This document shows positions 5,729-59,031 of a DNA stretch of 64,000 nt, piece by piece. Positions within the stretch are counted from its first letter, which is position 1, and every line of letters begins with the position of its first letter. The notes under the pieces are model-generated. The model did not search any database. It was given only the letters and a program-made list of their open reading frames with translations, and had not been told where the DNA came from. The position numbers and the translations under genes were made by a program. Origin of the DNA: Verrucomicrobium sp. (GTDB lineage Bacteria > Verrucomicrobiota > Verrucomicrobiia > Methylacidiphilales > UBA1321); the NCBI GenBank assembly GCA_017849585.1, contig JAFIGT010000029.1, positions 62,001 through 126,000 on the forward strand, in the 5' to 3' direction.

Positions 5729-6514
5729 TTAGGCGGCGATGCCGCTCTGGGAGCGGTCCGACACCTGCGAAGCCTGCAGGGCCTTGCTCCAACTGCCGAA
5801 GAAGCGGGGCTTGCAAGCGGCGGCGAAGAGGGCCGGGTTCTGGCGGCGGATTTCACCGCTGCGCAGGTCGGCACCTTTGGAGTTGAGCTCACGGATTTCA
5901 CCCAGGATCTGTTCGCGCGTCCAACGGCGGCGGCGGCGGATCTGGTTGTAATCAATCCCAGCGCGCTCGAGAGCCGCACCCCAGTTGCCGAAACGGCGAC
6001 GGGCGGTGGCGATGAGCGGGTTGGCCGTTTCGTCCATCTTCTTGGAGCTGAGATCCGCGCCGCTGTCCTTGAGGCGTTTGATCTCGGAGATGATCTGATC
6101 ATCGTCCCAAGAGCGGTAACGGTAGATTTCTTCCGGAGCCAGACCAGCGGCGGCGAGAGCGTCCTTCCACGAGCCGAAATGGTTCGGGCGAATCGCCGCG
6201 TAGACCATGGGGGCGTACTTGCTGAGCATCATGGAGCGGAAGGAGAGATCGACCCCTTGCTTTTCGAGTTCCTGGATGGTGGAAATGATACGTTCCTTGG
6301 ACCAGTCGCGGTATTTGCGGATGCTGTCGTAAGCAATGCCAGCGGCCTCGACCGCCGTGCGCCAGGAACCGTAGTAACGGATGCCCGCGGCGAGCAGTTC
6401 CTGATAGTTTTGCCGCATGTAGTGGGAATAGAGAGGCTTCCCGGCTTGATTCCAAGCCTTGACTTCTTCGATCACAGTCTGGTTATTCCAGCTTTTGTTG
6501 CGATTATCGTTCAT
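5729..6514 (-). CDS. Protein built of four HNH-associated (homing-endonuclease-associated) repeats
   Basis: The 261 residues consist almost entirely of four tandem units of about 60 residues. Each starts with W-x4-I-x2-I-x2-L, continues G-x-DLS-x4-M, and ends FGSW-x2-AL-x-AAGI-x3-I. The W/FGSW/AAGI pattern matches the HNH_repeat type of small helical DNA-binding units found beside homing endonucleases. No HNH or other nuclease motif is present, so a stand-alone DNA- or RNA-binding role is likely. The basic run IRRRRRW joins units 3 and 4. There is no signal peptide. AAAGGA lies 9 bases before the ATG. A sigma-54 type promoter sits just upstream, linking it to the stress regulon at 43-61 kb. 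Confidence 0.72.
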   Translation of the reverse strand: MNDNRNKSWNNQTVIEEVKAWNQAGKPLYSHYMRQNYQELLAAGIRYYGSWRTAVEAAGIAYDSIRKYRDWSKERIISTIQELEKQGVDLSFRSMMLSKYAPMVYAAIRPNHFGSWKDALAAAGLAPEEIYRYRSWDDDQIISEIKRLKDSGADLSSKKMDETANPLIATARRRFGNWGAALERAGIDYNQIRRRRRWTREQILGEIRELNSKGADLRSGEIRRQNPALFAAACKPRFFGSWSKALQASQVSDRSQSGIAA

Positions 6515-6544
6515 AGTGTTGTGTCCTTTGTTTTATATTAGATA

Positions 6545-6560
6545 GGCTACTTTCATGCCA
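6545..6560 (-). promoter_or_regulatory. Sigma-54 type promoter for the HNH-repeat gene
   Basis: The minus strand reads TGGCATGAAAGTAGCC, with GG and GC separated by 10 bases. The predicted start point is about 6534, giving a 20-base leader that holds the AAAGGA ribosome site. A half dyad (GCT-TATAA-GCA, 6642-6652) lies 88 bp upstream of the -24 GG, the same spacing as at the promoters in 43-61 kb. The outer dyad copy is not evident. Confidence 0.55.
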
Positions 6561-6656
6561 AGTCAAACGCATTTCGACAAGTGACATTTTGGCGACAAGG
6601 TGATACAGAGCCATTAGGCAATTGAGCGACCCTTGTATGTCGCTTATAAGCAAACA

Positions 6657-48703: not shown

Positions 48704-48868
48704 TCAAGAAAGTGGCCGTCTGCCCACGAGGAATGAGGCGAGGAACAATACGAGAAAAAGCAGGAACATAAACTTGGCGGCCGAAGCACCCGCTCCAGCT
48801 ATTCCCGCAACACCCAGTACGCCGGCAATCATCGCGAGGGCGAGAAATGTGAGTGACCAGAAGAGCAT
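48704..48868 (-). CDS. DUF1328-family small membrane protein
   Basis: This 54-residue protein is [19 protein letters not shown], then [16 protein letters not shown] and [19 protein letters not shown]. The [12 protein letters not shown] core between two hydrophobic helices defines the YtjA/DUF1328 family. AAAGGA precedes the ATG. A consensus sigma-54 promoter lies about 50 bases upstream. A second member is at 60359-60520. These proteins are often induced by stress, but their molecular role is unknown. Confidence 0.85.
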
Positions 48869-48915
48869 TCTTTATCCTTTCATTCGATAAGCATTCATAT
48901 CTCGACATTCTTTTT

Positions 48916-48931
48916 TGCAGCCTCCGTGCCA
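48916..48931 (-). promoter_or_regulatory. Sigma-54 type promoter (DUF1328-lipoprotein operon)
   Basis: The minus strand reads TGGCACGGAGGCTGCA. The predicted start point is about 48905, 37 bases before the ATG at 48868. Confidence 0.75.
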
Positions 48932-48945
48932 AGCCAAGCCGTGGG

Positions 48946-49055
48946 TGCTTGCTTCCATCGATCTACTCTGGAAAAGGCACTTTCGCAGGGTGAAAGCCGT
49001 CTGCCGGGTGATTGCAAAGTGCAATCGCCGGAGCCTTGTTTTCATGCGCGCTGCA
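48946..49055. promoter_or_regulatory. Two pairs of enhancer-type dyads between divergent genes
   Basis: For the minus-strand DUF1328 promoter: TGC-AAAGT-GCA at 49013-49023 (within the longer GATTGCA-AAG-TGCAATC) and TGC-GCGCT-GCA at 49045-49055 (within CATGC-GCGCT-GCATG), centred 88 and 120 bp from the -24 GG. For the plus-strand kinase promoter: GCA-CTTTC-GCA at 48977-48987 and TGC-TTGCT-TCC at 48946-48956, at 89 and 120 bp. The first pair is near perfect and the second is half-sites only. Confidence 0.6.
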
Positions 49056-57612: not shown

Positions 57613-58968
57613 TTAGCTCACCGGTTCGGCGGCGAGCAGGCTCATTTTTTTGCGCTTGCGGTAGAGCGTGGCGGGATCGATACCGAGGATTCGCGCTGCC
57701 ATTTCCAAGCTATCCGCGCGTTCCATGATAAGACGGATATGCTCCGTCTCCAGCTCTTCCAACGTCACAGGCGCGCCCAGTGTGAGCTGGCTCTTGCTCT
57801 CGTGACTGCCGAGATGTTCCGGTAGATCGCTGAGTTGAATGGTCGTGCCTTGGGCGAGAATCACGGCGCGTTCGATGGCGTTGCGAAGCTCACGGATATT
57901 GCCGGGCCAAGAGTAGGAGAGCACCTTTTCGAGTGCTTCGGGACTGAAATCCTTCACAGGACGCCGGATCTGCTTGGCAAAAAAACGGGCGAAATTCTGA
58001 CTGAGCCGCTTGAGATCGCCCACGCGTTGGCGCAAGGGTGGCGTGGTGACGGAGATCACATTCAGTCGGTAGAAGAGATCCTCGCGAAACGTTTTGTTCT
58101 TTACGCTTTCTTCGAGATTGCGATTGGTCGCTGCGATCACGCGCACATTGGCCGTGCGGGTTTTATTTTCTCCGACGCGCTCATACTGCCGCTCTTGAAG
58201 CAACCGCAGGAGCTTGGGTTGGATTTCGAGCGGCAGCTCGCCAATTTCATCGAGGAAGAGAGTTCCTCCCTTGGCAGCATCGACTTTTCCCCAGGTATCC
58301 TTGACCGCTCCGGTGAAGGAACCCTTGACGTGGCCGAAGAGTTCACTCTCTAGCAATTCGCGGGAGAGACTGGGGCAACTGACGGTGACGAAGGGCTTGT
58401 CCTTCACGTCGCTGTGGTCGTGCACGTAACGGGCCAGCACGCTTTTACCCGTACCGCTTTCGCCAAGGATCAGAACGGCTGCCGGAGTAGAAGCGGAACG
58501 GACGAGAACGTCCATGATGCGCACCATGGCGGGATCGTCTGAAGTATAATCGACCGATGGCGATTGTACGGAGACCTGTTGCTCCAGGTCGGTCACTTGC
58601 TGCTTCCACCGCTTCATGCGCTCGACCATGCCAAGGATGTGGCGGAGCTGCGCCGGGGTGAACGGCTTTTCCAGATAATCAAACGCACCGCGCCGCATGG
58701 CCTCGACCGCTGTGGCGATGGAGGCGTGGGCGGTGAACACCACTGTGGGGACATTGGGAAAAAGTTTTACAATGGAGTCGAGCACCTCAAGTCCGTCTTC
58801 ATCGCCAATACGCATATCAAGAAATACGAGATCGTAGGGCTCTTCCTGCATTTTCAGCAGGGCAATGCGACCGCTATCCACGGCATCGGCTTCAAGCCCT
58901 TCACTTTGAATAGCCATGCTGATGGAGGTCCGGATGTTTTTCTCGTCGTCGATAATCAGGATTTTCAT
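57613..58968 (-). CDS. Sigma-54-dependent response regulator, AlgB-like
   Basis: About 451 residues from the ATG at 58968 (an ATG at 58974 is equivalent). The receiver has ILIIDDEKNIR, LVFLDMRIGDEDG with the phosphoacceptor Asp, VFTAHA and LEKPF. The AAA+ domain has ILGESGTGKS (Walker A), GHVKGSFTGA (the sigma-54 contact loop; Ser in place of the usual Ala), GGTLFLDEIGELPL (Walker B) and FREDLFYRLNV. A Fis-type helix-turn-helix ends the protein (HIRLIMERADSLEMAARILGID, then PATLYRKRKKM), the form seen in AlgB. It is the only sigma-54 activator in the window and the likely reader of the TGC-N5-GCA dyads. Confidence 0.93.
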   Translation of the reverse strand: MKILIIDDEKNIRTSISMAIQSEGLEADAVDSGRIALLKMQEEPYDLVFLDMRIGDEDGLEVLDSIVKLFPNVPTVVFTAHASIATAVEAMRRGAFDYLEKPFTPAQLRHILGMVERMKRWKQQVTDLEQQVSVQSPSVDYTSDDPAMVRIMDVLVRSASTPAAVLILGESGTGKSVLARYVHDHSDVKDKPFVTVSCPSLSRELLESELFGHVKGSFTGAVKDTWGKVDAAKGGTLFLDEIGELPLEIQPKLLRLLQERQYERVGENKTRTANVRVIAATNRNLEESVKNKTFREDLFYRLNVISVTTPPLRQRVGDLKRLSQNFARFFAKQIRRPVKDFSPEALEKVLSYSWPGNIRELRNAIERAVILAQGTTIQLSDLPEHLGSHESKSQLTLGAPVTLEELETEHIRLIMERADSLEMAARILGIDPATLYRKRKKMSLLAAEPVS

Positions 58969-59031
58969 AGGCATAACGAATGGTTTTCTTAACTGCGCCC
59001 CGGGAAAGATCCGTCTCCCCCTCTATGCCAC

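Follow-up and report, generated by a model that had tools for sequence, protein, structure and literature searches.

The locus studied here raises the question of what a bacterial protein built of nothing but homing-endonuclease-associated repeats might be doing behind a promoter of the sigma-54 type. The window, that is the whole stretch of 64,000 nucleotides from Verrucomicrobium sp. that was analyzed, contains the gene for such a protein, and its features are collected in Table 1. At a probability of about 60%, we read the gene product as an inherited four-unit nucleic acid binder, driven by sigma-54 in most lineages, which would act as a DNA-binding regulator or a nucleoid-type organizer.

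Table 1. Features of the HNH-repeat gene and its upstream region in the window; the limits of the repeat units were judged visually, using the helices and the alignment.
Feature	Position	Strand	Basis
Coding sequence, 261 aa, four HNH_repeat (PF18780) units, no other domain	5729..6514	(-)	Open reading frame list of the window; Pfam, 83 bits
Repeat unit 1, about residues 7-69	6308..6496	(-)	Pfam, AlphaFold model, alignment
Repeat unit 2, about residues 70-134, one of the best-conserved units	6113..6307	(-)	AlphaFold model, alignment
Repeat unit 3, about residues 135-196, best Pfam match, invariant ARRRFG	5927..6112	(-)	Pfam, single-unit model
Repeat unit 4, about residues 197-250	5765..5926	(-)	Pfam, AlphaFold model, alignment
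Predicted sigma-54 (-24/-12) promoter TGGCATGAAAGTAGCC	6545..6560	(-)	Conservation of GG-N10-GC in front of orthologous genes
83-nt upstream block, differing from sister genome G002 by nothing but a 1-base indel	6515..6597	(-)	Pairwise comparison
Possible sigma-70-type promoter TTGACT-18-TCTAAT that overlaps the sigma-54 site, in place of it or in addition to it	6537..6566	(-)	Read from sequence

When the 261-aa protein was searched with Pfam profiles, HNH_repeat (PF18780, "Homing endonuclease associated repeat") matched in four stretches, well above its cut-off of 26 bits, and was the sole family to exceed its curated cut-off. No HNH nuclease family was found for the protein in Pfam or NCBIfam, and searches of NCBIfam and PADLOC gave no meaningful match. 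The original prediction of a stand-alone protein that is filled by its repeats and lacks a nuclease domain was therefore correct, and whereas the PF18780 family is named after its association with homing endonucleases, in the window the repeats make up an entire protein that is encoded by a core gene. A profile search of the same genome for further PF18780 genes, which would have included the repeat-only paralogues that had been suspected, found none, so that the gene is single copy. In an open-access full-text library, no function for PF18780 was found, the family appearing merely in a table of a modelling paper, and the papers that were searched contained neither expression data for the HNH-repeat protein nor a description of it.

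AlphaFold, supplied with 30 aligned sequences, predicted four units of four short helices each that are joined by linkers (pLDDT 85.5, pTM 0.41), the pTM value indicating that the placement of the units relative to each other is uncertain and not rigid. A single unit was predicted with a pLDDT of 89.7 and a pTM of 0.75, and the predicted units are small helical bundles. R46, R109, R172, and K235 occupy the equivalent position in the four units; these residues do not vary among the 30 aligned proteins, and neither do R34, R93, K158, R66, R132, and R193. Conservation is highest in units 2 and 3. The median pI of 41 proteins was 9.96. A sequence search for solved relatives returned chance-level matches only, a search with the single unit against solved structures gave no convincing match (best Z of 2.3, to Fis, which is at noise level), and Foldseek with the whole model against the PDB gave nothing under an E value of 0.8. 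Among viral models, the whole model matched one uncharacterized phage protein (E = 2.1e-4), and in PHROGs two stretches of the protein matched an uncharacterized phage family (E = 1.1e-17). Helical units with an invariant basic residue in each and a pI of about 10 make it likely that the protein binds nucleic acid, be it DNA or RNA, as predicted from sequence and model.

Tandem repeats of the same family precede the HNH domain in HNH endonucleases, and the C-terminal nuclease domain of these enzymes is what the window protein lacks; a protein with three repeats plus HNH from the same phylum was tested with Pfam (L158), and two more are nuclease-bearing by reading of their sequences (L159 and L003), the latter from a genome of the order itself (G011). 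One HNH_repeat also follows the recombinase domain of a serine recombinase from the phylum (L162, from G294). Repeat-only proteins of about 200 aa (L166-L168, L170-L195) occur in a different class, with 30 of its 119 sampled genomes matching the query; these differ from the window protein in having three units instead of four and in having upstream regions without a convincing sigma-54 element, and the one that was compared is 35% identical to the window protein over 184 residues. In L160 and L191 (G181), three HNH repeats are fused to a long lysine-alanine-proline tail, which in L160 is rich in PAKKA and histone H1-like by eye, with no Pfam match for the tail. Genome G365 has at least five near-full-length three-repeat paralogues as well as fragments, in contrast to the single copy found elsewhere.

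In the reading we prefer, each unit would use its third helix, together with the basic residue at the end of that helix, to contact nucleic acid, and the four units would jointly read one long, probably specific, site on DNA (or RNA). It is also possible, if rather unlikely in our judgment, that the repeats bind structured RNA or the ribosome and tune translation or RNA stability, with the level of the protein adjusted by sigma-54. The basic charge of the protein and its invariant arginines fit such binding too, small genomes retain the gene with a sigma-70-type promoter in front of it, and the histone H1-like tail of L160 would bind RNA as well; however, the HNH nucleases and the serine recombinase that contain related repeats both act on DNA, which speaks against this reading.

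The element TGGCATGAAAGTAGCC has GG and GC at the -24/-12 spacing. Taken as a bare sequence, it is no more than moderately surprising (150-nt upstream region of the gene, p about 0.004 by comparison to dinucleotide shuffles), and its -12 half, TAGCC (TCGCC in family f1), deviates from the TTGC consensus. For the orthologues, one per genome, the best -24/-12 site of each upstream region was scored against dinucleotide shuffles, using a simple ad hoc consensus weighting on genomes that are related to each other. In all 10 scorable f1 genomes a GG-N10-GC site reached a p of 0.03 or less, and the same holds for members of f2, f6, f7, f8, f9, and f13. Six families of the order and one relative outside of it have the element upstream of the orthologue, the distance to the start codon ranging from 24 to about 265 nt. 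When each genus was represented by a single genome, 12 of 16 orthologue upstreams scored 17 or more, compared to 1 of 60 controls (Fisher p = 7e-10), the controls being upstreams of conserved neighboring genes, some of which may lie inside operons. The f1 core is TGGCACGAAAATCGCC with small changes and conserved -24/-12 columns, whereas in f9g15, which includes Methylacidimicrobium, GG and GC are kept in seven genomes and the bases between them vary. In f8, the element is located 114 nt before the ATG in G023 and, as TTGGCATACA(T/A)CGTGCT, about 265 nt before the ATG in G018 and G028. Because GG-N10-GC is found again in front of orthologues throughout the order, TGGCATGAAAGTAGCC is more than a chance occurrence, and the predicted sigma-54 promoter, which had been proposed from the window alone, is well supported. 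The conserved 83-nt block around it perhaps contains, besides the promoter, a candidate activator or autoregulatory site.

The sigma factor itself is encoded in the same genome (rpoN match at G000:C34:12292-12768, E = 1.2e-58), and rpoN was found in 50 of 60 relatives, its absences falling mostly in incomplete genomes. A gene of this genome whose sequence reads as rpoN is preceded, at 40 nt, by a strict -24/-12 site (L151, C34:11225-11240), a sign that sigma-54 controls its own gene. In f4 genomes G027, G037, G040, G050, and G057, rpoN is located on the same contig as the HNH-repeat gene, at a distance of about 11 kb.

TTGACT (6561..6566) and TCTAAT (6537..6542) flank the sigma-54 site, and 6545..6560 might be merely the spacer of a sigma-70 promoter, with no part for sigma-54 in this species. 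In relatives, sigma-70-type elements do replace or accompany the sigma-54 element, and several lineages, namely f3, f4, f5, and the genus f9g13 (which includes Methylacidiphilum), carry TTGACA-type sigma-70-like promoters instead, although most of them have rpoN. We nevertheless consider this explanation improbable, since most of the other f1 genomes have lost TTGAC but kept GG-N10-GC, and since f9g15 has both elements, separate from each other and each conserved. Lineages with small genomes (f4, assemblies of 1.3-2.2 Mb) retain the gene without a recognizable sigma-54 site and under a sigma-70-type promoter, which counts against a purely stress-induced role. In lineages with promoters of the sigma-70 type, the protein would be made without a sigma-54 switch, and its job is probably basic and tuned by sigma-54 and not a pure stress function.

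The original prediction had assigned the gene to a stress regulon 37 kb away, and in this reading the product would be a stress protein whose gene is switched on by the activator encoded at 57613..58974 of the window, acting via the dyad GATTGCA-N3-TGCAATC. The promoter is of the same kind, and among the members of the regulon are genes of stress type, for example a DUF892 gene and one that is DUF883-like. Strict -24/-12 sites numbered 14 in the genome, compared to 3 for a reversed control pattern, and include those of rpoN and of ammonium-transporter-like, FlgB-like flagellar, cyclopropane-synthase-like, and DUF883-like genes, the names being taken from reading the sequences and the DUF883 profile match being below its cut-off. 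Several of the stress-type sigma-54 sites have a sequence close to GATTGCA-N3-TGCAATC upstream, which is the only dyad that could be defined in the sigma-54 stress genes and is a candidate enhancer site of the regulon. A perfect copy of the dyad, GATTGCAAAGTGCAATC (14/14 match), is located at 49010..49026 of the window, where the gene for a small membrane protein, presumably DUF1328-like, lies in 48704..49026 (-) with a -24/-12 site at 48916..48932, and at other loci of the genome (L144, L147, L148) strict sigma-54 sites are preceded by weaker copies.

Upstream of the HNH-repeat gene, however, the best match to the dyad is 8/14 (p = 0.95), without any excess over shuffles. A half dyad had been claimed at 88 bp; the best-fitting stretch, CAATTGCC, about 106 nt before the ATG, is our guess at what was meant, and the sister species G002 does not share it, even though the two species are nearly identical over the 83 nt nearest to the ATG. 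The protein encoded at 57613..58974 is an NtrC-type sigma-54 activator with a response receiver, a sigma-54 interaction domain (AAA), and HTH_8, and its gene is located near the DUF892 gene. Close orthologues of it (53% or more) were found only in f1, f6, and f8, and the best matches in f2 and f9 amounted to about 40-44%, yet f2 and f9g15 keep the sigma-54 element, so that another activator is likely. A search for a common activator site across families gave no consistent dyad, and GTTAC/GTAAC-like inverted repeats were seen in some f1 upstreams only. With a negative outcome in both the dyad and the activator test, and with small genomes using sigma-70-type promoters, membership in the stress regulon of the window was rejected and the stress-protein reading appears very doubtful. 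In the preferred reading of a nucleic acid binder, RNA polymerase with sigma-54 would make the protein whenever an enhancer-binding protein other than the stress activator of the window is active, and the protein would then work as a DNA-binding regulator or nucleoid-type organizer.

By profile search, PF18780 is present in 59 of 60 Methylacidiphilales genomes, mostly with one gene each, and the sole genome without it is a 66% complete assembly. In a class-wide protein search, full-length orthologues from the sampled genomes of the order were 54-98% identical, with Tous-C9LFEB as the closest named relative (98%); G063, a genome from another family of the class, has an orthologue at 53%, and three more genomes had weak or multi-repeat relatives. 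The records of the relatives are named Methylacidiphilales or Verrucomicrobia subdivision 6. A heptosyltransferase cluster lies near the focal gene in 13 of 21 compared regions and further neighbors are common to groups of families, although a simple ORF caller was used for this comparison and an antisense ORF masked the focal gene in several regions, so that adjacency is shown for fewer of them. Comparison of the gene with its counterpart in sister genome G002 gave a dN of 0.0108 and a dS of 0.2058, corresponding to a dN/dS of about 0.05. The HNH-repeat gene is a vertically inherited, conserved single-copy core gene of the Methylacidiphilales under strong purifying selection, and the mobile, patchy distribution expected of an HNH homing endonuclease was not observed. 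That it is a free-standing homing-endonuclease-like gene or a decayed remnant on its way out after loss of its HNH domain, as the name of the repeats and the HNH-bearing versions found in the phylum, one of them in a genome of the order itself, might suggest, is practically ruled out by the order-wide distribution at a single locus, the partly conserved neighborhood, the low dN/dS, the conserved promoter, and the lack of an HNH domain in the window protein, with none recognizable in the orthologue sequences read.

As to a domesticated homing endonuclease, nuclease-bearing relatives do exist in the phylum, but the repeat-only form is the one that is vertically inherited in the order and it is found in another class as well, so that either the repeat-only or the nuclease-bearing form may have come first. 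WhiA and the plant AP2/ERF factors provide earlier examples of regulators derived from the DNA-binding parts of homing endonucleases; their folds (LAGLIDADG and AP2, respectively) differ from HNH repeats, and no common ancestry is claimed.

More tentatively, the protein may be an order-specific, sequence-reading chromosome organizer or global regulator, mostly under sigma-54 control, in which tandem helical units would read a few bases each. If this were true, the HNH repeat would be a cellular DNA-binding module that was borrowed by nucleases, and not the reverse. The gene is a predicted order-wide sigma-54 target whose element is also present in genomes of cultured isolates of the order (Methylacidimicrobium species), and as a conserved, regulated, single-copy core gene for a repeat-only protein it offers a clean system to learn what HNH repeats bind.
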